Positions 24,524 through 33,865 of a DNA stretch of 64,000 nt are shown piece after piece. Location of the stretch: NCBI RefSeq assembly GCF_003574965.1, contig NZ_CP032317.1, positions 744,001 to 808,000 on the forward strand. The letters run 5' to 3'. The first letter of the stretch is position 1. Each line of letters opens with the position of its first letter. Source of the stretch: Hymenobacter oligotrophus (GTDB lineage Bacteria > Bacteroidota > Bacteroidia > Cytophagales > Hymenobacteraceae). A model generated the notes under the pieces. That model did not search any database. It was given only the letters and a program-made list of their open reading frames with translations, and was not told the DNA's origin. Position numbers and translations under genes: made by a program.

Positions 24524-26116
24524 TTATTCGGCCAGCACCGGGGCCGCTGGGGCGTTGGTTTTGCGCAGCGGCAGCTCCGGAATCAGCAGGGTAGCGCCAA
24601 GGCCCAACACCACCAACCCCATGGTGATGCGGTAAATATTGTTGATAGCCACGACAAACGCCTTCCGCACCTCCGGCGCCAGTTGGCCGCCCGCAGGGGC
24701 CGCAACGGCGGGCAGGGCCGGGCCTTCGCTCACTACAACCTGCTTGGGCGAAGTTCGGCTGGTTGCTGCGGCTTGGGTGGGCAGCGTTTGGGCCAGTTGC
24801 AGGGTAAGCACGGTGCCCAGCAATGCCGCTGCCACCACGCCCCCAATTTGCCTAAAAAACTGGCTGGCCGAAGTGGCTTGCCCAATCAGGCGCGGCTCGG
24901 TAGCGTTTTGCACCGCCAGGGTGTAAAGCGGCATGCTGGGCCCCACGCCCACGCCGCACACAAACACGTAGAGCAGCACTTGCCAGTAAGTGGTACTGGC
25001 CGAGAGCGTCGTCATCAGCCAGAGGCCTACCAAAAGCAAGGCGCCGCCGGCCAGCATCCAGCGTTTGTACTGGCCGCCCCGCCTCGATACCATTTGCCCG
25101 GCCACGTTGGAGCCCGTTACCACACCTAGGGACAGCGGAATCAGGCTCATGCCCGCGCGCGTAGCCGAGGTGCCCAGCACGTTTACCATAAACAGCGGCT
25201 CGAAAATGATGATGCTCAGGAAGGTGCCGCCCAGCAGAAACAACGCTGCGTTGGCCGAGCGGAACACCGGGTTGCCAAACAGGCCGAAATCCAGAATGGG
25301 GTGTTCGGAGCGCACCGAGCGCAGCACAAATGTGGCCAATAGCAGGGACGCCGCGCCCAGCAAGCCCAGCGTGGTGGCCGAGGCCCACGGGTACGTTGCT
25401 TTGTTGAGCTGCAAGGCCACAATAAGCCCGCCTACTCCGCCAATCAGCAGCAAGGCAGCTGAAATATCGAGGCGGGTGCTGGCGCCGGTGGGGGGCAGCT
25501 TGGGCATGTTTTTCAGGATAAACCACAGGGCCACGGCACCTAGGGGCAGGTTCACGTAAAACACCAGCCGCCAGCCAGCCACGCCGGGCAACAGGTTGTC
25601 GCCTAGGTCGGTGAGCAGGCCGCCTAAAAAAGGACCCAGCACCGATGAAATGCCGAACACCGCGCCCACGTAGCCTTGGTACCGCCCGCGCTCGGCCGGC
25701 GGAAACAAATCGGCGATGATGATGAAAGCCAGGGCAAACAGCCCCGCGCCGCCAAATCCCTGCACCACCCGGAAAAAAATCAGCTGGCTCATGCCGTCGC
25801 CGAGCAACGGCAGCGGGCCAAACTCCCCGGCCAACCCGCACAGCGCCGAGCCGAGCAAAAACACCGATACGGCCACAATCTCGATGTTGCGCCGCGGAAA
25901 CGTATCGGCCAGTTTGCCATAAATAGGCACCAGCGCCGTGCTGGCAGCTAGGTAGGCCGTGGCCACCCACGTAAACCGCTCCAGCCCCTGCAAATCGGCC
26001 ACAATGCGAGGCAGCGCCGTCGACACGATGGTTTGATCGAGGGCGCCCAAAAACATGGCAATCAGGACGCCGGCCAGGGTAAGCATTCGGTCGCGGTGCG
26101 TAAGCGGGTGGTGCAT
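24524..26116 (-). CDS. DHA2-family MFS drug exporter (EmrB/QacA-like)
   Basis: 530-residue, about 14-helix proton-driven exporter. MFLGALDQTIVSTALPRIVADL with the acidic motif D1 (LDQTIV), YLAASTALVPIYGKLADTFPRR (motif A), FFRVVQGFGGAGLF (motif C region) and LGPFLGGLLTDLG are standard for EmrB/QacA. Substrates are usually lipophilic or cationic toxic compounds. The ATG at 26114-26116 gives a short cytoplasmic N-terminus; an in-frame upstream start would overlap the promoter region of the divergent TSUP gene. Confidence 0.88.
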   Translation of the reverse strand: MHHPLTHRDRMLTLAGVLIAMFLGALDQTIVSTALPRIVADLQGLERFTWVATAYLAASTALVPIYGKLADTFPRRNIEIVAVSVFLLGSALCGLAGEFGPLPLLGDGMSQLIFFRVVQGFGGAGLFALAFIIIADLFPPAERGRYQGYVGAVFGISSVLGPFLGGLLTDLGDNLLPGVAGWRLVFYVNLPLGAVALWFILKNMPKLPPTGASTRLDISAALLLIGGVGGLIVALQLNKATYPWASATTLGLLGAASLLLATFVLRSVRSEHPILDFGLFGNPVFRSANAALFLLGGTFLSIIIFEPLFMVNVLGTSATRAGMSLIPLSLGVVTGSNVAGQMVSRRGGQYKRWMLAGGALLLVGLWLMTTLSASTTYWQVLLYVFVCGVGVGPSMPLYTLAVQNATEPRLIGQATSASQFFRQIGGVVAAALLGTVLTLQLAQTLPTQAAATSRTSPKQVVVSEGPALPAVAAPAGGQLAPEVRKAFVVAINNIYRITMGLVVLGLGATLLIPELPLRKTNAPAAPVLAE

Positions 26117-26210
26117 TGGGCGTGGGGTTGCTGAAGCCTGGCATACGTAAAATACCCAGGTGGGAGTGCTACAACGACCGCTAAGAAGCATAATCGGCCC
26201 GACACACCGG

Positions 26211-26218
26211 CTATCTTT
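26211..26218 (+). promoter_or_regulatory. Possible -7 element of the TSUP gene
   Basis: TATCTTTA fits the Bacteroidota TAnnTTTG -7 consensus at seven of eight positions and lies 10 bases before the ATG at 26229. No good TTTG -33 element is visible at the expected distance. Confidence 0.45.
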
Positions 26219-26228
26219 ACGGCCTTTT

Positions 26229-27008
26229 ATGGAACACCTCGACGCTACGCTGGCGCTGCTTTGTGCCTTTGCTTTTCTGGCTGGTTTTGTTGACTCGATT
26301 GTGGGCGGCGGCGGGCTGATTCAGCTACCCGCCATGTTGCTGCTGCTCAAGGGCGTGCCGGTGCCCACGGTGCTCGGCACGGGCAAGGTGTCGTCGGTGG
26401 CCGGTACGGCGGCGGCGCTGCGGCGCTACGCGGGCCAAGTGCCCATTCGGTGGCAGGCAGTAGGGGCGGCGGCCGTTGCGGCTGGGGTGTTTTCGTTTCT
26501 GGGGGCGCGGGTGGTGTCGCTGCTGCCCTCGGAGCTGCTGCGGCCGCTGGTGCTGGGCTTGCTGGTAGTTATTGCCATCTACACCTTCTGGCGCAAAGAT
26601 TTCGGCTCCATTCATGCGCCGCGCCTTCCCGAAAGCCGCGAGCCATACTACGGCGTGCTCATCGGCGTGCTAATTGGGTTTTACGACGGGTTTTTCGGGC
26701 CCGGTACCGGCAGCTTTCTGCTGTTCGCCTTCGTCGGAGTTTTTGGCTACAACTTCCTGAGCGCGTCGGCCTCGGCCAAGGTGGTGAACGTGGCTACTAA
26801 CCTCACGGCCCTGGCTTATTTCGCCTACACCGGGCATATTCTGTGGCAAGTGGCCCTGCCCATGGCCGCCTGCAACATGCTGGGCTCCAGCCTAGGTGCC
26901 CGTACGGCGCTCAAGCAAGGGGTAGGCTTTGTGCGGGTGCTTTTCCTAGTGGTGGTCGGCGGCATCATTCTCAAGCTCGGCGCCGATACGTTCGGGCTGC
27001 ATTTCTGA
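26229..27008 (+). CDS. TSUP (TauE/SafE) family membrane transporter
   Basis: 259-residue protein with about eight hydrophobic helices in two repeats. FLAGFVDSIVGGGGLIQLPAM and GFYDGFFGPGTGSFLLFAFV are the paired TauE/SafE signatures. Members export or import small anions such as sulfite, sulfoacetate or organic sulfonates; the substrate here is unknown. The ATG at 26229 follows a TATCTTTA -7-like element. The TGA stop is directly followed by CCTAGG, then by a long inverted repeat. Confidence 0.85.
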   Translation: MEHLDATLALLCAFAFLAGFVDSIVGGGGLIQLPAMLLLLKGVPVPTVLGTGKVSSVAGTAAALRRYAGQVPIRWQAVGAAAVAAGVFSFLGARVVSLLPSELLRPLVLGLLVVIAIYTFWRKDFGSIHAPRLPESREPYYGVLIGVLIGFYDGFFGPGTGSFLLFAFVGVFGYNFLSASASAKVVNVATNLTALAYFAYTGHILWQVALPMAACNMLGSSLGARTALKQGVGFVRVLFLVVVGGIILKLGADTFGLHF

Positions 27009-27029
27009 CCTAGGGATGCAGCGCGGTGT

Positions 27030-27171
27030 AGCGCGGACTTTGGCTACGCCGACCTTCGGTTGTGGTCCGCGTCCCCGGATAGTAGCTTCTGCTACCTAGG
27101 TCGATTATCAGAGAAATGTATCTGGGGGCTGCGGACTACAACCGAAGGTCGGCGTTGCCACAGTCCGCGCT
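27030..27171. repeat. Long imperfect inverted repeat (MITE/REP-like)
   Basis: Left arm 27030-27075 and right arm 27124-27171 are reverse complements with only a few mismatches; both contain CCGACCTTCGGTTGT-type sequence and CAGTCCGCGCT/AGCGCGGACT ends. The 48-base spacer contains an inner hairpin (GTAGC TTCT GCTAC, 27082-27095) and CCTAGG at 27095. No coding sense is seen. It resembles a non-autonomous mobile or REP-like palindromic element placed between a TSUP gene and its terminator. Confidence 0.75.
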
Positions 27172-27180
27172 TCAACCAAA

Positions 27181-27220
27181 AAACCGGCCCGCCCCACCAA
27201 TTGGTGGGGCGGGCCGGTTT
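27181..27220. terminator. Perfect 40-bp palindromic bidirectional terminator
   Basis: Uninterrupted palindrome, 18-bp arms (AAACCGGCCCGCCCCACC) around AATT, located between the 3' ends of the convergent TSUP gene and the 27238 gene. The core ACCAATTGGT is shared with the palindrome at 62149-62200. Confidence 0.88.
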
Positions 27221-27237
27221 GCCTTGCTGTACCTGGG

Positions 27238-27726
27238 TTACTCCTCGCCGCGGCCGGGCGGCAGGCCGGGTACGGCATTGCCTTGGTTGCCCTGCACGCT
27301 CGGCACACCCATTTTCTTCTCGCGGGCTTTCTGGTACTTGTCGAACTGGGCAGCCGTGAGCACGTCCTTCAGCGCGGCCATGCGCGATTGGCCAATGTCT
27401 TCGATTATCACGTTGAGCTTGCGCAAGTCGGCGCGGTGCCGGATGCGGGCTTCCTCCACTTGCCGCACGCTGCGGATGTTTATCTGGCGCACTTTTTCTT
27501 CCTGCTGCGGGCTAAGGGCCAATGCTTGTTTCAGGCTTTGCGTAAGGCCGTTGGCTTGCGCTTCAATCTTGGCTTCGTCGGGCTTGGCGGCGGGAGCAGC
27601 GGTGCCGCGGGTTTTGGCGGTGGCATCGGCCGGTTTGGGCTTGGTGGCGGCCGTTTGGGCCCAGGCGGCGGGCGCGGTAGCCAGCAGCGCGGCGGTCAGC
27701 AAAATCGATTTCTTCGGGATGTTCAT
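27238..27726 (-). CDS. Secreted helical protein, Spy/CpxP-like
   Basis: 162 residues. A signal peptide (MNIPKKSILLTAALLATAPAAWA) is followed by an Ala/Lys/Pro-rich linker and then a charged helical domain: LKQALALSPQQEEKVRQINI, RADLRKLNVIIEDIGQSRMAALKDVLTAAQFDKYQKARE. The 'L..LT..Q...Y' layout resembles Spy/CpxP-type periplasmic proteins and the short DUF-type helical proteins common in Hymenobacter. The specific role is unknown. The ATG at 27724-27726 is chosen because it begins the signal peptide. Confidence 0.7.
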   Translation of the reverse strand: MNIPKKSILLTAALLATAPAAWAQTAATKPKPADATAKTRGTAAPAAKPDEAKIEAQANGLTQSLKQALALSPQQEEKVRQINIRSVRQVEEARIRHRADLRKLNVIIEDIGQSRMAALKDVLTAAQFDKYQKAREKKMGVPSVQGNQGNAVPGLPPGRGEE

Positions 27727-27908
27727 CTTGTTCGGTAGGCAAAGTGGCCAACGCATGGCGCAGGCGCTCGGCACTGCGAAAATAGCGTGCCAGAGTTCTA
27801 TTAGCAGCTGAACGCCGCACGCGCCGTAATTATTCCCGGGCCCGCGCAAGTTTGGCAATTGCCCTAGGTGCCTGTAACCTTTGGCGCCGGTTGGCAATAG
27901 AAGGAGGC

Positions 27909-28961
27909 ATGAAGCAACCATCCTCTCGCAATACGTGGCTAAAAGCCGTCGGCATAGGTGCCGCCGTGGCCGCCGCTGCCCTATGGGCCAACCGCCGCGG
28001 ATCATATGATTTGCGCGGCAAAGTAGTGCTGATTACGGGCGGCTCGCGCGGCCTTGGGCTGGTGCTGGCACGGCAGGCCGCCGCCGAAGGCGCCCGGGTG
28101 GCCATTTGCGCCCGCGACCCCGACGAGCTGGAGCGCGCCCGCAAAGAGCTGCTGGCCGAAGGCACCGAAATCCTGGCGTTGTCGCGCGACCTCAGCGACG
28201 AAACCGAGGTGCGCACCATGGTAGCCGAAGTGCGCAACGAACTGGGCCCTATTGATGTGCTCATCAATAACGCGGGCATCATCACGGGCGGCCCCTTGGA
28301 GCACATGGACGTGCGCGACTACCAGGAGTCGATGGACATCCACTTTTGGGCCGCGCTGCACGCCATGTACGCCGTGCTGCCCGACATGAAACGCCGCCGC
28401 GAGGGGCGCATCATCAACGTTGCCTCGGTGGGCGGCAAGGTAGCCGTGCCGCACCTGGCCCCGTATTGCGCCAGCAAGTTTGCGCTGGTGGGCTTGTCCG
28501 AAGGCTTTCGGGCCGAGTTGCTGCGCTACGGCGTATACGTTACCACCGTGTGCCCCGGCCTGATGCGCACCGGCTCGCCGCGCCAAGCCATCGTGAAGGG
28601 GCAGCACTTGCTCGAGTTTGCGTGGTTTATGGTGGCCGACTCGCTGCCGGTGCTCACCGTTAGCGCCGGCTACGCCGCCCGGCAAATCTGGAACGCCGCC
28701 CGCCGCGGCGATGCGGAGCTGATCCTGGGCATGCCGGCCAAACTCATTTCGTTGCTGCACGGCATTGCGCCCGGCACCGTAGCCAACGTGCTCAGCATGG
28801 CCAACCGCACCCTGCCCGGGCCCACCGGAGAGGAGGGCAACGAGCGGCGCCGCGGCTTCGAAAGCGAATCGGCCGTTACCCGCTCGTGGCTGACCACGCT
28901 CACGCGCAAAGCCGAGCGCGAAAACAACGAGCGCAACAACCACTCGCCGTACCCTGCCTAA
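27909..28961 (+). CDS. SDR family oxidoreductase with N-terminal membrane anchor
   Basis: 350 residues. A hydrophobic helix (about 12-28) precedes a classical SDR domain: VVLITGGSRGLGLVLARQ, INNAGIITGG, NVASVGG (Ser) and YCASKFAL (Tyr-x3-Lys). The CARDPDEL stretch, with Arg after the second strand, suggests NADP(H). After the core, a C-terminal extension of about 100 residues is longer than in ordinary SDRs and ends in a charged tail. The substrate is unknown. CCTAGG lies 2 bases after the stop (28964). Confidence 0.85.
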   Translation: MKQPSSRNTWLKAVGIGAAVAAAALWANRRGSYDLRGKVVLITGGSRGLGLVLARQAAAEGARVAICARDPDELERARKELLAEGTEILALSRDLSDETEVRTMVAEVRNELGPIDVLINNAGIITGGPLEHMDVRDYQESMDIHFWAALHAMYAVLPDMKRRREGRIINVASVGGKVAVPHLAPYCASKFALVGLSEGFRAELLRYGVYVTTVCPGLMRTGSPRQAIVKGQHLLEFAWFMVADSLPVLTVSAGYAARQIWNAARRGDAELILGMPAKLISLLHGIAPGTVANVLSMANRTLPGPTGEEGNERRRGFESESAVTRSWLTTLTRKAERENNERNNHSPYPA

Positions 28962-29039
28962 ACCCTAGGTGGGGCCGGCTTCGTAAAAAAAAGCCGGGCC
29001 GGCGTACCGAGCTATCGAAACTCTTCCCATCTTTACCGC

Positions 29040-29144
29040 ATGCACCTGTTCAGCCAGTCATACTATTATTATTACCCGACCTGCCAGCCCACCGGCTTCG
29101 GCAACGGTCGTGTATGTACGACGGCATCCGAGCAGACCTTGTAA
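29040..29144 (+). CDS. Tyrosine-codon leader peptide of phhA attenuator
   Basis: A 34-codon frame, ATG at 29040 and TAA at 29142-29144. Codons 8-12 are five consecutive tyrosine codons (TAC TAT TAT TAT TAC, 29061-29075), preceded by MHLFSQS and followed by PTCQPTGF. It lies between a CATCTTTA sequence (29028-29035, a weak match to the -7 consensus) and an intrinsic terminator at 29170, with phenylalanine 4-hydroxylase starting 88 bases after the leader stop. This is the arrangement of ribosome-mediated attenuation: stalling at tyrosine codons when charged tRNA-Tyr is scarce would favour read-through into the gene that makes tyrosine. Coding use is inferred. Confidence 0.7.
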   Translation: MHLFSQSYYYYYPTCQPTGFGNGRVCTTASEQTL

Positions 29145-29201
29145 CGTCTCCGCGAAACCGCTTCATACCGCCCCCGTCCGATAGCCGGACGGGGGCTTTT
29201 T
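29077..29201 (+). promoter_or_regulatory. Putative tyrosine-responsive transcription attenuator
   Basis: RNA elements seen after the tyrosine codons: stem CGACC-TGCC (29077-29085) with GGCA-AC-GGTCG (29100-29110); a small overlapping stem GTCGT/ACGAC (29107-29111 with 29118-29122); then the terminator stem at 29170-29196. A ribosome paused at 29061-29075 would mask the first stem. A GACGG/CCGTC pairing (29120-29124 with 29174-29178) could compete with the terminator, but it is only 5 bp, so the exact antiterminator is unresolved. Confidence 0.6.
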
Positions 29202-29206
29202 GTTTT
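29170..29206 (+). terminator. Leader terminator upstream of phenylalanine hydroxylase
   Basis: Perfect 11-bp GC-rich stem GCCCCCGTCCG / CGGACGGGGGC with a 5-base loop, followed by TTTTTGTTTTT. It lies 26 bases before the phhA ATG on the same strand and 26 bases after the leader stop codon, so it would block phhA unless bypassed. Confidence 0.88.
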
Positions 29207-29231
29207 TACCCCACTTCAAACCCTAGGTGCC

Positions 29232-29972
29232 ATGCAAGCCCTCCAACAACATTACGACCAGTACACCGCCGAAGACCGCCAAGTGTGGCAATTGCTCTTT
29301 GAGCGCCAGTTACAAGCCCTGCCCGGGCGCGCCGCCCCCGAGTTTATGGAAGGCCTGGCGCGCATTGGCTTCACGGCCGACCGCATCCCCGATTTTCGGC
29401 AGGTAAACCCGGTGCTGCGCCGCCTCACGGGCTGGGAGCTGGTGGCGGTGCCCGGCATCGTCGACGATGCCGTGTTCTTCGGGATGCTGGCTGCCAAGCA
29501 GTTTCCGGCCACCACGTGGTTGCGCAAGCTCTCGGAGCTCGATTACCTGGAAGAGCCCGACATGTTCCACGACGTGTTTGGCCACGTGCCGCTGCTTACC
29601 AACGCCGAGTTTTGCCGCTTTTTGCACCAGTTAGGCCACATTGGCCTGCGCCACGCCTCCGACCCAGCCGCCGTGGAGCTGCTGGCGCGCCTGTACTGGT
29701 TTACGGTTGAGTTCGGGCTGATTCGCGACGCGGGCAGCGGCGAGGCGCGCATTTACGGCGCGGGCATTTTGTCGTCGGCCGGCGAAACGCGCTACAGCCT
29801 CGGCGACGAGCCCACGCGCCTGCCTTTCGGCGTGGCAACCGTGCTCGATACCGCTTTTCGCAAAGACGAATTCCAGACCCAATACTTCGTGCTGGAGTCG
29901 CTCGATCAGCTGTACGCCACGCTGCCGCAGGTGCAGCAGCAGCTGCGCGAAGTCATTGTAGCGGAGTTGTAG
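29232..29972 (+). CDS. phhA: Phenylalanine 4-hydroxylase
   Basis: Tetrahydrobiopterin- or related-pterin-dependent iron enzyme converting phenylalanine to tyrosine. The 246-residue length fits bacterial enzymes of the catalytic-domain type without a regulatory ACT domain. Iron ligands are His113 and His118 in DMFHDVFGHVPLL and Glu160 in YWFTVEFGL. GILSSAGETRYSL and FRKDEFQTQYFVLES are also conserved. CCTAGG lies 4 bases before the ATG. A leader with five tyrosine codons and a terminator lies just upstream, and a CCTAGG-containing terminator just downstream, so the gene is a self-contained unit. Confidence 0.94.
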   Translation: MQALQQHYDQYTAEDRQVWQLLFERQLQALPGRAAPEFMEGLARIGFTADRIPDFRQVNPVLRRLTGWELVAVPGIVDDAVFFGMLAAKQFPATTWLRKLSELDYLEEPDMFHDVFGHVPLLTNAEFCRFLHQLGHIGLRHASDPAAVELLARLYWFTVEFGLIRDAGSGEARIYGAGILSSAGETRYSLGDEPTRLPFGVATVLDTAFRKDEFQTQYFVLESLDQLYATLPQVQQQLREVIVAEL

Positions 29973-30001
29973 TAGTCTGCCCGCCGCGGCGTAATCGTTC
30001 G

Positions 30002-30047
30002 CAACAAAAAGCCCCTAGGTGACCGAACACCTAGGGGCTTTTTGTTG
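30002..30047. terminator. Terminator formed by an inverted pair of CCTAGGTG
   Basis: Perfect 20-bp stem from CAACAAAAAGCCCCTAGGTG and its complement, loop ACCGAA, followed on the plus strand by CTTTTTGTTG. It ends phhA. Both arms contain the iterated word CCTAGGTG, as CCTAGGTG at 30014 and CACCTAGG at 30028. Confidence 0.92.
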
Positions 30048-30087
30048 TGGGTTGACACACGCGTTAAAATCGCCTGAAAAACAAAAA

Positions 30088-30112
30088 CGCCCGACCGCGG
30101 TGCGGTCGGGCG
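30088..30112 (-). terminator. Terminator of the 30156 lipoprotein gene
   Basis: Perfect 11-bp stem CGCCCGACCGC / GCGGTCGGGCG with loop GGT. On the minus strand it is followed by TTTTTGTTTTTC. A second small stem (CCCGTTGG / CCAACGGG, 30115-30135) lies just before it. Confidence 0.85.
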
Positions 30113-30155
30113 CCCCCGTTGGGTGGAGCCAACGGGACTTGGGAAATCGTTCGGC

Positions 30156-30656
30156 TTAGTGAGCGAAAGTGCTCACGTAAGTGGTAGCGTTGGCGCCTTC
30201 GCCTTCGGTTAGTTTCAGGCGGAGGGTGTTGGCCGATAGTTCTTCTACTGCAAACTTGCGCTCCGAATCACCTACCTTCACGGTGAGGGTCTTGGCGTCT
30301 TCGCTCAGGGTGTAAGAGCCAGACTTTTGCTGCTCTACCTGCGGGTTTGCTTTGGTGGCACCCTCGTCGAGCACGTAGCGGCCGTCGGTGGTGAACTGGG
30401 TGAGGTTGTCGCGCAGCGTGGATTTCATGTGCGCAAACATGCTTACGGTTACGGCCGCTTCAGCACCGGCCGGTGTCGATACGGTGGCAAGGTCCGTCAT
30501 TTGCCATTGTCCGGCTGCAAGTAATTGCTGCGGGGTCTGCTGCACCTGTGCTTCGGCTTTAGCGGTGGGCTGCGCTACTTCTTCCAACTCTTTCTCACAC
30601 GATGCCAGGCCAGTAAGGGCCAGCGCCAAGCTCAGGTAAACGGGCAGTTTCTTCAT
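30156..30656 (-). CDS. Lipocalin-like domain lipoprotein
   Basis: 166 residues. A lipoprotein signal (MKKLPVYLSLALALTGLASC, lipobox LASC) predicts membrane anchoring. The mature part has an early GQWQMTDLA motif and a strand-rich pattern (FTTDGRYVLDEG, SGSYTLSEDAKTLTVKVGD, LRLKLTEGE), as in the 'lipocalin-like' families frequent in Bacteroidota, which probably bind a small hydrophobic ligand. The ATG at 30654-30656 begins the signal. Upstream 30657-30954 is AT-rich and holds a palindrome TACAAT-TTTAT-ATTGTA (30854-30870), but no recognisable gene. Confidence 0.7.
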   Translation of the reverse strand: MKKLPVYLSLALALTGLASCEKELEEVAQPTAKAEAQVQQTPQQLLAAGQWQMTDLATVSTPAGAEAAVTVSMFAHMKSTLRDNLTQFTTDGRYVLDEGATKANPQVEQQKSGSYTLSEDAKTLTVKVGDSERKFAVEELSANTLRLKLTEGEGANATTYVSTFAH

Positions 30657-30891
30657 GAAAACAGGTAATGGGTTTGGTGAAGAAAAATGAGCAACTACAC
30701 TCAGGCTTTTTTGCATTCTATACACTTTCCAACTTCTCGCCTCAAGGGGTTTTGAGCACCCTTTGTCGCCGTTGACAATGCTAAACTAAAAAACGTTTTT
30801 CAGACTTTCGCGGAAAAAGTCAATAATTCAAACATTATGTTCGGAAAGTGCCATACAATTTTATATTGTACTTTATTACGTCCTTAAAATA

Positions 30892-30927
30892 CAAAAGCTG
30901 CCAGCGTAAAACGCTAAGCAGCTTTTG
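30892..30927 (-). terminator. Terminator of mutM
   Basis: Ten-bp outer stem CAAAAGCTGC / GCAGCTTTTG plus an inner AGCGT/ACGCT stem, 27 bases beyond the mutM stop on the minus strand; the strand continues TATTTTAAGG. Confidence 0.7.
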
Positions 30928-30954
30928 GTTAAAGGCGGTTTGTAAACTTGCGCC

Positions 30955-31770
30955 CTAGGTTTCTTTTTGGCACACGGGGCAGAAGTAGGTTGCCCGGCCG
31001 CCTACATACTTTTTTACTATTGTCGATTGGTCGGCCGGGCAGCGCTTATAATCGTCGGATTGGGGCACCGGGTAGGCGTCCCATTCGCGGGCATGTATGA
31101 TAAAAGAAAGAGGGAAGCGTTGGTAGCTGGCTTCGTGCTCGATGGCCGTGCGCAACACCAGCTGAATGGCCGCGTGCAAGCGGCTAACCTCGGCAGCGTT
31201 CAACGACGCCGCAATGCGCTCCGGATGAATGCCCGCCTGAAACAACACTTCGTCGACAATCCAATTGCCCAAGCCAGCGGCAAGGCGTTGGTCGAGCAGG
31301 GCGGGTTTCACCAGAGTTTTCCGGCGGCCCAACGCTGCTGTCAACTCTTCGGGGGAAAGGTCGAGGGCATCGGGCCCTAGGTGCTTTTCGCGTTGGTAGG
31401 CGGCCACGCTATCGGCCACCCGAATGCGGCCAAACTTGCGCGGATCGATGAATGCCACGCGCAGGCCGTCGGCCAGATGAAAGGCCACGCGCGTGAAGCG
31501 CGGCCGGTCGTGGTCGTCGCGGTAGGCGCCTACGTCTCCCGTCATGCCAAAATGCAACACCAGCACTTGCCCGGTCGAAAGCTCCAGAAAGCAGTTCTTG
31601 CCCAAGCGCTGCGTGGCCAACACGGTGGCGCCCACCAAGGCAGCGCGCAGCTCGGCTTCCTTGGTTACCAGCACGTGAGCATCGAGTACCTCCACGGCAG
31701 CAAGGCGCTGGCCCACCACGAGCGCATCGAGAAAACGGCGGTAGGTTTCGACTTCGGGTAATTCAGGCAT
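30955..31770 (-). CDS. mutM: Formamidopyrimidine-DNA glycosylase family protein (MutM/Fpg)
   Basis: 271-residue base-excision repair enzyme removing oxidised purines such as 8-oxoguanine and nicking the abasic site. The N-terminus MPELPEVETYRR gives catalytic Pro (after Met removal) and Glu; GKNCFLEL supplies the beta-lyase Lys region; DPRKFGRIRV and AGLGNWIVDEVLFQAGIHP are typical. The C-terminal zinc finger reads CPAD...CPVC, so the second of four usual cysteines is Asp. The TAG stop is embedded in CCTAGG (30954-30959). Nei-type specificity cannot be excluded. Confidence 0.88.
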   Translation of the reverse strand: MPELPEVETYRRFLDALVVGQRLAAVEVLDAHVLVTKEAELRAALVGATVLATQRLGKNCFLELSTGQVLVLHFGMTGDVGAYRDDHDRPRFTRVAFHLADGLRVAFIDPRKFGRIRVADSVAAYQREKHLGPDALDLSPEELTAALGRRKTLVKPALLDQRLAAGLGNWIVDEVLFQAGIHPERIAASLNAAEVSRLHAAIQLVLRTAIEHEASYQRFPLSFIIHAREWDAYPVPQSDDYKRCPADQSTIVKKYVGGRATYFCPVCQKET

Positions 31771-31870
31771 TTACAGCAAAGCGTAAAGATTAACCAACTG
31801 CAGCGGCGCGGCCCCGCCGCACAAGCTCGTCGGTACATAAACCCAGCCGTTGGCAGAACGTTCCGCAGTT

Positions 31871-31933
31871 AGTTGCCAGTTGCCAGTTATTGGTTGTTAG
31901 TTATCAGAGGATGACCAACTGGCAACTGGCAAC
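31871..31933. repeat. Inverted repeat between mutM and phzF-like gene
   Basis: An exact 17-base inverted repeat (GTTGCCAGTTGCCAGTT at 31872-31888 and its complement at 31917-31933), each arm itself a double GTTGCCA/TTGCCAG repeat. It is located just after the 3' end of the 31941 gene on the minus strand. No T-run, so it looks like a repeat element rather than a terminator. Confidence 0.7.
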
Positions 31934-31940
31934 CGACAAC

Positions 31941-32837
31941 TCACAGCTCTAACTGTCCCGCTACCAATACCGCCGCGGAGCCGCTTATCTGTACGGTTTC
32001 GATGGCTTCGCGGGGGCCCACCACGCGTACCTGCACGGTACCGGGGCGGTTCATCCAGTGGCCTTGTTCGGCCACAAACTCGGGGCCGGGCAGGTAATTG
32101 TGGTGCCAGAGGTACGCGGCCATAGCGCCGGTAGCCGAGCCCGTTACAGGGTCTTCGGTAATATCGGGCGGAGTGCCGAAGTGGCGCGCAAAGGTGCGGC
32201 CGGCCGGGGTAGCCCCGCCCAGGCAAAACAGGTGCGGGCTGAAAAAGTCGCTGCTGCTTCTGTACTTATTATAAGTGTTCGCATCAGGGGCTTGCGCGCG
32301 GCGAAGTGCTTCGTGGTTGCGCAGCAGTACCATGAGCTGCGGCGTGCCGGTGCTTACGGTTTGGATGGGCGCGCCGGGCAACACGTCGTCGGGCGTGAGG
32401 CCAAACAAGGGCATTACCGCGGCAGCATCGTGCACGGCCCCGAACACAGGGCGGCGCTGCGTCATGGTAACCTGCAGGGGCTGCGTAGGTGTGGGCGGCG
32501 TAATGTCAACGCCGATGGGGCCATCGCGCAGCTCAAATTGCATCGACACCGGGCCATTGGTTAGCGAAACCCGGCCGGCGTGCACCAGCGCAGCGGCCGT
32601 AGCAATGGTGGGGTGGCCCGCCAGGGGTATTTCTTCGGCCGGCGTAAAGTAGCGTACGGCTACCTCGGCCAGCGACGAGCGGCGCACAAACGCAGTTTCC
32701 GACTGGTTGAACTCACGCGCCAGCCGCTGCATGGTGTCGGCAGAAAGGTCGTCGGCATCGAGCACCACGGCGCAGGGGTTGCCGCCCATAGGCCGCGTGG
32801 TGAAAGCATCGACAAGCAAAAACGGATATGCGGGCAT
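31941..32837 (-). CDS. PhzF family isomerase-like protein
   Basis: 298-residue protein of the PhzF/diaminopimelate-epimerase fold. It begins MPAYPFLLVDAFTTRPMGGNPCAVVL, exactly the family start, followed by REFNQSETAFV (the catalytic Glu region), RYFTPAEEIPLAGHPTIATAAAL and EDPVTGSATGAMAAYLW. In phenazine producers PhzF isomerises a chorismate-derived acid, but most members, including those in Bacteroidota, have no known substrate and there are no phenazine genes here. The ATG at 32835-32837 is dictated by this N-terminus. Confidence 0.87.
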   Translation of the reverse strand: MPAYPFLLVDAFTTRPMGGNPCAVVLDADDLSADTMQRLAREFNQSETAFVRRSSLAEVAVRYFTPAEEIPLAGHPTIATAAALVHAGRVSLTNGPVSMQFELRDGPIGVDITPPTPTQPLQVTMTQRRPVFGAVHDAAAVMPLFGLTPDDVLPGAPIQTVSTGTPQLMVLLRNHEALRRAQAPDANTYNKYRSSSDFFSPHLFCLGGATPAGRTFARHFGTPPDITEDPVTGSATGAMAAYLWHHNYLPGPEFVAEQGHWMNRPGTVQVRVVGPREAIETVQISGSAAVLVAGQLEL

Positions 32838-32925
32838 GGTGAGGGCAGTTAGGGTAGGGCACAGCAATGATAAGCTTCGGGAAGCAAACCTAGGGGCGCG
32901 GGGCGTTGGCCGGGCCGCCAACAAA

Positions 32926-32956
32926 AAAGCCAGCCTCCTGAAAAGAAGCTGGCTTT
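32926..32956 (-). terminator. Terminator of the M48-like gene
   Basis: Nine-bp stem AAAGCCAGC / GCTGGCTTT with loop of 13 bases. On the minus strand it continues into TTTTTTGTTGG. It lies about 20 bases after the stop of the 32978 gene. Confidence 0.8.
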
Positions 32957-32977
32957 GAAAACGTTGGCTTAGCGCAC

Positions 32978-33865
32978 CTAGGAAGGATCGGTGAGGCGGC
33001 CAATTTGTTGGCCTTGGGGGTTGAAGATGCCGCCCTGCGCGCTCACATAGAGCATGCGCTGCTGCACATCCACCAACACGAAGGGGAAATCGGGGCTGGT
33101 GGAGCGTGTAAGGCGTCCCACAACGGCCGCCGTGCGCTCCTGCGAATCGAGCCGAACCACGTTGAGATTGCGGGTTACGTAAAGCGGGTCGTGGGGGCTG
33201 TTGCGGAAGGTAAGCTTGCCCAAGAAACCCGACGAGGCCGGTTGCACCACGGCTGGGCGCGGCGCGGCTGCCGCGCGGGTGGCTACGGCTACCGGCTGCG
33301 CCGAGGGTGCTGCCCCGCGTAGGCTGGCCATAATTTGCTGATTGGCCTGCTGCCAACCGCGCCCGATGGCCGTAAGGCGGGTGGGGCGGCCGGGGTGAGT
33401 GGGCGAGTCGTAGTCCTGGGCTACCATGGCCATGGCGGTTTGCGCTTCGGCCAGGCTGGCGCCCATCTTGCGCAGCACAAAACCCGAAAACTCATCGGCC
33501 TCCAGCTCGTCGGCGGGGTTGGAGCCGCCGGGCTTAAGGGTGTGGCCGTTGAGGTGGTGGCCCATTTCGTGGGCCAGTATGCTGATGCCGGCCCAGTCGG
33601 TGCGGCCCGCGCGGTTCACGGCGCCCACAAACTGAGGATTGTATAGCAGGAAGCGCTTGCCCCCGTACACCACGGCGGCGGCGTTTTCAACTTGGGTAGT
33701 GGCGCGCAACTCAAAGCGCGGCTTCAGGCCCACGACATCCGTGATTTCCCGCAGCACATCGCGCTGCGGGGCTGGCTGAGCAGCCATGGCCTGCCCGCCC
33801 GTAAGCAGGCTCCAGCCAAGGAGCACGCCCGAAATAAGGCGGCGAAAAATGCGGTTGTGGTTCAT
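32978..33865 (-). CDS. Secreted M48-like metallopeptidase
   Basis: 295 residues. A signal peptide (ending about GGQAMAAQ, residue 30) is followed by a gluzincin-like domain with HEMGH at residues 99-103 (ILAHEMGHHLNGH) and a downstream ELEADEFSGF, which supplies the third zinc ligand as in M48 peptidases. DYDSPTHPGRPTRLTAIGRGW resembles the usual TH/SHP region after the active site. The last 100 residues form a separate beta-rich tail. No membrane helix, so a periplasmic or secreted form. The TAG stop is inside CCTAGG (32977-32982). Confidence 0.82.
   Translation of the reverse strand: MNHNRIFRRLISGVLLGWSLLTGGQAMAAQPAPQRDVLREITDVVGLKPRFELRATTQVENAAAVVYGGKRFLLYNPQFVGAVNRAGRTDWAGISILAHEMGHHLNGHTLKPGGSNPADELEADEFSGFVLRKMGASLAEAQTAMAMVAQDYDSPTHPGRPTRLTAIGRGWQQANQQIMASLRGAAPSAQPVAVATRAAAAPRPAVVQPASSGFLGKLTFRNSPHDPLYVTRNLNVVRLDSQERTAAVVGRLTRSTSPDFPFVLVDVQQRMLYVSAQGGIFNPQGQQIGRLTDPS

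Follow-up and report, generated by a model that had tools for sequence, protein, structure and literature searches.

Why should a gene for phenylalanine 4-hydroxylase, an enzyme that in bacteria is usually filed under catabolism, be preceded by a short reading frame with five consecutive tyrosine codons and by an intrinsic transcription terminator? Such an arrangement is found in Hymenobacter oligotrophus (Hymenobacteraceae, Bacteroidota), within a stretch of 64,000 nucleotides (positions 744,001 to 808,000 of the forward strand of contig NZ_CP032317.1) that is here called the window and numbered from its first letter. Our reading, to which we give a probability of roughly 0.88 from comparison and folding of sequences, is that phhA, the hydroxylase gene, is under the control of a tyrosine-specific, ribosome-mediated transcription attenuator and serves tyrosine synthesis.

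The leader open reading frame (ORF) has 34 codons on the forward strand, from the ATG at 29040 to the stop codon at 29142-29144, and the original prediction was right about its coordinates (29040-29144) and frame. It encodes MHLFSQSYYYYYPTCQPTGFGNGRVCTTASEQTL, in which codons 8-12 (TAC TAT TAT TAT TAC, 29061-29075) form the tyrosine run, the presumed sensor. The strong intrinsic terminator that had been described after the leader is indeed there, as a hairpin of 11 pairs, 10 of them G-C (29170-29196, -25.4 kcal/mol), and the T-rich tract TTTTTGTTTTT, read from the sequence, at 29197-29207. Next on the same strand comes phhA (29232-29972, 246 aa), the regulated gene. Its product, PhhA, scores 281.7 bits against TIGR01267, the equivalog model of phenylalanine 4-monooxygenase (curated cut-off 264.75), and also matches PF00351, confirming the predicted enzyme. 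Among PDB entries it is matched best by phenylalanine-4-hydroxylases, e.g., 3tk2 and 1ltu, from Chromobacterium, and the closest named locus is that of Solirubrum puertoriconensis, whose PhhA is 95% identical.

RNA folding, proposed earlier as a check, gives -63 kcal/mol for 29030-29215 vs -45.8 (sd 4.3) in shuffles (z = -4.0), so that the region is more stable than expected. A known Rfam family was considered for the locus and rejected; a search of 28900-29400 gave six matches at E 5 or lower, all of them far under their gathering scores, and the T-box covariance model is absent among them. In the organism's genome TAYTAYTAYTAY occurs at four separate places, the leader included; two of the other three fall within long frames (L057 and L059), and the third within a short one (L058) with no start codon ahead of the tyrosine run.

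The tyrosine run and the terminator, whose conservation the original prediction had made its touchstone, are both kept in 8/8 genomes of a genus sample, with 3 to 5 consecutive tyrosine codons. Beyond the genus, a family sample of 160 genomes includes 85 with a type-1 phhA, where type 1 means a best E no higher than 1e-80. Inspection of the upstream region in each of the 85 showed a tyrosine-rich leader in 81 (14/14, 41/41 and 26/30 by batch). Among the 67 carriers of the latter two batches, a script located a terminator after the leader in 66, and the last one (L249) was recognized by eye; a finder tolerant of bulged hairpins served for the last family batch, as well as for the named loci and the swap test described below.

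The leader also recurs across the class Bacteroidia. At least three tyrosines in six codons are encoded upstream of 40/77 hydroxylase genes in the samples of relatives and of the class, one of these ORFs having a GTG start. The 77 genes come from 52 of the 108 class genomes in which a hydroxylase was matched; the other 56, mostly with remote homologues of ~590 aa, were left out. The named loci, a set overlapping with the 77 genes, give 31/80 by the same measure, the doubtful L176 included. Carriers include Solirubrum, Hymenobacter, Pontibacter, Fulvivirga, Marivirga and Roseivirga. Outside the family, no tyrosine leader is present at L017, L018, L023, L024, L028 and L030, and in several class genomes phhA lies close behind another reading frame.

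Enrichment was measured in upstream regions of up to 320 nt, 157 loci being reduced to 134 by dropping near-identical ones. An ATG-started ORF that is 8-60 codons long and has four or more tyrosines in six codons occurs in 42/134. Twenty rounds of dinucleotide shuffling yield 0.15 on average and never more than 1, and the opposite strand has 1. Leucine, the next amino acid by count, reaches 4 loci vs 4.4 in shuffles; the next ones above their own shuffles are histidine (3 vs 0.05), alanine (3 vs 0.25), isoleucine (3 vs 1.15) and threonine (2 vs 0.35). Among hydroxylase copies other than type 1, a tyrosine-rich ORF precedes 0/20 inspected, although terminators and a different kind of leader ORF can be seen there.

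A strand of the leader that competes for the terminator had not been identified in the original prediction. Folding places a hairpin of segments 1 and 2 at 29077-29110, right after the last tyrosine codon. Segment 2 (29092-29116) can alternatively act as an antiterminator strand, as it forms a duplex of -28.3 kcal/mol, vs -25.4 kcal/mol for the terminator, with segment 3 (29164-29188), which overlaps the 5′ arm, the loop and part of the 3′ arm of the terminator (segments 3 and 4). With bases made only up to 29182, the 2:3 duplex has -15.9 kcal/mol. As long as the terminator 3′ arm is unmade, the best fold contains the 2:3 pairing when the RNA is covered up to 29086 and the 1:2 hairpin when segment 1 is free.

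Whether leaders match their own terminators was examined by a swap test on 50 non-redundant loci, where each leader was paired with its own or with permuted terminator arms (5000 permutations). The mean duplex energy is -13.74 kcal/mol with own arms vs -10.95 kcal/mol (sd 0.35) with permuted arms, and 0/5000 permutations are as low; 40/50 loci lie below their own mean swapped value. L012 was kept in this test although its terminator is wrongly assigned (stop to terminator, -25). The duplex beats 95% of shuffles in 22/50 loci, the window locus being outside these 22. An antiterminator mutually exclusive with the terminator is thus supported by the swap test.

In nine genus sequences the inner 10 pairs of the 1:2 hairpin are kept except in one cell, and 94.7% of the cells of the 2:3 pairing are paired vs 32-45% when the strands are slid. 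The terminator hairpin has two pairs with compensatory changes. Over the 50 loci the antiterminator strand starts at a median of 12 nt past the last tyrosine codon, and its end lies at a median of 11.5 nt upstream of the stop codon. A ribosome at a stop codon generally covers 18 nt before to 14 nt after it, and with this footprint assumed it meets the antiterminator strand in 36/50 loci; a ribosome at the stop codon may therefore itself block the antiterminator in many relatives.

The proposed course of events is as follows. RNA polymerase would begin at the leader AUG or right beside it, with a ribosome entering the leader at once. When charged tRNA-Tyr is scarce, the ribosome would stall on 29061-29075 and cover segment 1, leaving segment 2 to pair with segment 3, so that the terminator could not form and phhA would be transcribed. 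When tRNA-Tyr is charged, the ribosome would read on and segment 2 would be held in the 1:2 hairpin or covered, so that the terminator would stop transcription at 29170-29196. PhhA made in times of shortage would then produce tyrosine from phenylalanine. Most sequence-level features of the classical architecture that had been proposed are present here, as in attenuators of the trp, phe and his type: an ORF with codons for the sensed amino acid, an intrinsic terminator before the structural gene and an exclusive antiterminator. The regulated gene also appears to supply the sensed amino acid, as judged from the equivalog match and the genome context.

Where the transcript starts bears on how the ribosome could enter so early. 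The sequence CATCTTTA (29028-29035, forward strand), a putative promoter element similar to the -7 box of Bacteroidota, lies four bases before the leader ATG. Several other genus members have CATCTTTG, with 5/6 consensus positions. Among the 50 loci, a TAnnTTTG box with at least 5/6 positions ends 4-6 nt before an in-frame leader ATG in 29, whereas shuffled flanks give a mean of 2.2 and at most 7. In Flavobacterium psychrophilum this box is placed at -12 to -5 from the start site (PMC9723704), and by that spacing a gap of four between box and ATG would put the AUG at +1. Because 29/50 leaders start 4-6 nt after such a box, the leaders are probably leaderless, with the AUG at or next to the 5′ end of the transcript. 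Leaderless leader peptides occur in other phyla. A simple σ70 promoter scan of 28500-30500, which is uninformative in this phylum, found nothing. Leaderless mRNAs make up 5.5% in F. psychrophilum, Shine-Dalgarno sequences being absent from flavobacteria (PMC9723704), and 5′ untranslated regions under 10 nt make up ~3.7% in Bacteroides thetaiotaomicron (PMC7366714).

The second half of the question is what the enzyme is for. In the organism's own genome (99.97% complete), profile searches gave no match to TyrA (PF02153), to prephenate dehydratase (PDT; PF00800) or to homogentisate dioxygenase (HgmA). Chorismate synthase is present, and trpA, trpB and trpF were recognized by reading translations. 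Because matches to TyrA, PDT and HgmA are all missing, the organism probably makes its tyrosine from acquired phenylalanine, and PhhA is probably its main route to tyrosine. The simplest reading is a phenylalanine-requiring organism that makes tyrosine from phenylalanine, which an unknown dehydratase would change.

In the family sample, with TyrA called from a PF02153 match above 100 bits, TyrA is missing in 35/85 genomes with type-1 phhA vs 4/75 without (Fisher p = 7.6e-8, uncorrected for descent). When one genome with TyrA (G560) is moved across the type-1 threshold, the counts become 35/84 vs 4/76. By genus (g1, g3, g5, g6), TyrA-less carriers number 4, 23, 6 and 2, and TyrA-less non-carriers 0, 0, 1 and 0, g1 being without any non-carrier; the remaining TyrA-less non-carriers are two genomes of g2, in which no hydroxylase was matched, and one of g4 with a completeness of 78%. 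A class-wide association, in which 21/22 new tyrosine-leader genomes have no TyrA match above 75 bits, was set aside in favor of the family because only 94/395 class genomes pass the model cut-off.

PF00800 is also missing in the other TyrA-less genus members (G003, G005 and G007) and in G021, G022, G026 and G034, as well as in some genomes without a tyrosine leader, e.g., G028, where TyrA is kept. Four genomes with the tyrosine leader and without TyrA (G025, G043, G048 and G051) keep PDT, so phenylalanine can be made there and then hydroxylated. In the same family, G008 and G013 of genus g2 have no TyrA, PDT or hydroxylase match and apparently need both amino acids.

A tyrosine-biosynthetic role of a bacterial phenylalanine hydroxylase (PAH) was proposed earlier, and fitness data from Echinicola vietnamensis, also of Bacteroidota, support it (PMC7311316). 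The biosynthetic role suggested for phhA in the original prediction is thus supported by these data, by the gaps in the organism's own genome and by the concentration of TyrA loss in carriers. Many related bacteria probably make more hydroxylase when tyrosine is short, building tyrosine rather than degrading phenylalanine.

The alternative that survives best, although we regard it as unlikely, keeps the regulation as described and leaves PhhA mainly catabolic, with tyrosine as the outlet through which phenylalanine is drained and a shortage of tyrosine signaling room for more flux. In its favor, 50 of the 85 family genomes with type-1 phhA retain TyrA. A sensor of product starvation, however, would switch a catabolic gene in the wrong direction, HgmA is missing from the organism's own genome and has one weak match (22.3 bits) in the 160 family genomes, by a model whose sensitivity in this phylum is unchecked, and TyrA losses cluster in the genomes with type-1 phhA.

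Distinctly less probable is a working terminator with a signal other than tyrosine charging, the leader sensing the general speed of translation or a drug, or else controlling translation in place of transcription. The ermC leader senses a general slow-down (PMC2965389), and leaders of hydroxylase paralogues have no codon run, so a run is not required in every leader. Yet tyrosine stands out of the 20 amino acids, with 42 loci where the next ones above their shuffles have 2-3, and is nearly all that leader peptides share across genera.

It is more improbable still that the ORF encodes a functional small tyrosine-rich protein and that the terminator simply closes this gene, or the dehydrogenase gene upstream, in the ordinary way. 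Inside the genus, the part of the peptide past the tyrosine run is well conserved. Across genera, however, little is conserved beyond tyrosine while the ORF stays with phhA, and the 3′ part of the ORF pairs with its own terminator. A chance ORF in a G+C-rich spacer, for which one may cite the 91 mechanical ORFs of at least 25 codons that overlap 26000-33000, is refuted almost entirely by the 81/85 family orthologues and by the enrichment over shuffles.

Several observations weigh against the attenuator of a biosynthetic gene. Once the complete terminator is available, it is the lowest-energy fold either way, even with segment 1 covered; therefore the switch must be kinetic and decided during transcription, which is when known attenuators choose between folds. 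In the window, shuffling leaves the pairing with the terminator arm equally good in 36% of segments, because the region is very G+C rich, and the support for the antiterminator rests on the whole locus set rather than on the window's own duplex. In the nine genus sequences, the three outer pairs of the 1:2 hairpin are not conserved, the pair 29105:29176 of the 2:3 pairing is broken in 6/9, and this pairing has no compensatory changes in an alignment too shallow for them. The window's box has only 4/6 consensus positions, hence it is outside the 29 counted loci.

Four of the 85 type-1 genes lack the tyrosine leader: G540 and G542 have near-identical upstream regions without tyrosine ORF or terminator, G466 has a transposase-like frame upstream of phhA, and G560 has a leader of the paralogue type, being probably not a true type 1 but misclassified by the score threshold. 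A named locus of the genus, that of Hymenobacter sp. IS2118 (L170), lacks it as well. TyrA is present in all four of those type-1 genomes. Finally, the Fisher test ignores phylogeny, and the retention of TyrA in 50/85 genomes means that the hydroxylase route is often redundant. With these points counted in, we still consider the tyrosine attenuator real, conserved and probably functional.

A bolder combination falls slightly short of an even chance when all its parts are taken jointly: that the organism, like those relatives in which TyrA and PDT are both missing, is animal-like, having to take up phenylalanine and making tyrosine from it, with a tyrosine attenuator of leaderless start as the switch, and that this attenuator is of ancient origin in the class Bacteroidia and distinguishes the PAH genes that are biosynthetic, so that the leader of a bacterial PAH would tell an anabolic from a catabolic role.

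How new is such a switch? The Phe attenuators of pheA and pheST possess a terminator and an antiterminator. In Escherichia coli, pheA (with pheL) and pheST are likewise controlled through a leader peptide by the charged tRNA of the pathway product (PMC11802643). Here, in contrast, the amino acid is tyrosine, the phylum is different, the start is probably leaderless, and the target is an oxygen-dependent hydroxylase instead of a chorismate-branch enzyme or a synthetase. The closest aromatic case that we found is AroR of Corynebacterium glutamicum, also an aromatic leader (Phe-Tyr-Phe) before an aromatic biosynthesis gene (the aroF operon), but it is reported to answer to phenylalanine limitation and not to tyrosine (PMC11802643), whereas the run here is of tyrosine.

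T-boxes are induced by uncharged tRNA, which they bind directly with no leader peptide. The locus differs from them in its leader peptide, and the Rfam search gave no T-box match. Tyrosine T-boxes share with it control by tyrosine at the RNA level, and a 2005 survey counted tyrosine among the T-boxes and phenylalanine among the attenuators (PMC1262725). The role of PAH as a tyrosine route is shared with PMC7311316, the available excerpts of which describe no leader or attenuator. Within the phylum, 'strong clues' for leader-peptide attenuation at amino-acid biosynthesis operons were reported in F. psychrophilum (PMC9723704), in a main text (supplements outside our scope) with 0 occurrences of tyrosine or phenylalanine. 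A 2005 study of TyrA predicted attenuators of tyrA operons, one of them in B. thetaiotaomicron, and its excerpts name none for phhA (PMC1173090). The main text of Naville and Gautheret (2010) has no word starting with Bacteroid or tyrosine (PMC2965389). As the original prediction supposed, no tyrosine attenuator of phhA was found in the open-access literature (subscription papers and supplements being outside the search).

The kind of mechanism is thus classical, and the new parts are the amino acid, the target, the phylum, the probable leaderless start and the link with TyrA loss; for PAH, what is new is not the biosynthetic idea but its control. The shared switch would mean that the enzyme is often tyrosine-building in this phylum, and would help explain how TyrA and, in some lineages, PDT could be lost. 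It predicts tyrosine supply from phenylalanine in organisms that a search for TyrA only would call tyrosine auxotrophs. It would also provide a concrete example of attenuation by leader peptides that probably have leaderless starts, in a phylum not relying on Shine-Dalgarno sequences.

Variant leaders were also observed. A second hydroxylase (L228:6034-6771, reverse strand; its upstream region also in L031) is 43% identical to PhhA and lies near trpF-trpB-trpA and a DAHP-synthase-like gene, all named by reading translations. It has its own leader ORF, MLHQSIKCNFTLYVQPIHGAGVVPLHVRK, and a terminator, with no codon run. Run-less leaders precede paralogues in other genera, too (L025-L027, L029 and L039-L046). 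In tandem hydroxylase pairs of genus g5 (G530, G534, G538, G545 and G553), the tyrosine leader sits between the two genes and belongs to the downstream one. Orthologues that have lost the tyrosine leader are L229, L231, L232 and L170, one of which adjoins a transposase-like frame.

In Algoriphagus, Litoribacter and similar genomes, the phhA leader mixes histidine and tyrosine codons, as in MNPTPRTYIHHSHYYLQ (L062), MNQTYHSYSHYHTSFWG (L157) and MNQTYHSYSHHHTSFWG (L140); further such loci are L064, L127 (starting at GTG), L130, L135, L142, L143, L145, L152, L161 and L175. Either drift from tyrosine to histidine codons or sensing of both could account for them. Most mixed leaders fall short of the tyrosine-run criterion, so the carrier count is conservative. 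Another lineage has the leader MAEAHSFAKSDVIKFKFLYKLI before phhA in L009 and L011, and a shorter related ORF in L122; in all three a terminator is present and the tyrosine run absent.

An observation apart from phhA concerns CCTAGG, which occurs 99 times in the whole window, vs 14 expected and a maximum of 22 in 100 shuffles (e.g., at 28964, 29222, 30014 and 30030). The motif is flanked on one side, as CCTAGGT or ACCTAGG; the two flanks occur together in only 3. The motif is found in L002, L003/L107 and L228, and its count is zero in the eight other loci counted (L108-L111, L114, L117, L144 and L174). It is apparently a dispersed short motif peculiar to a Solirubrum-like clade, comparable to HIP1 of cyanobacteria.
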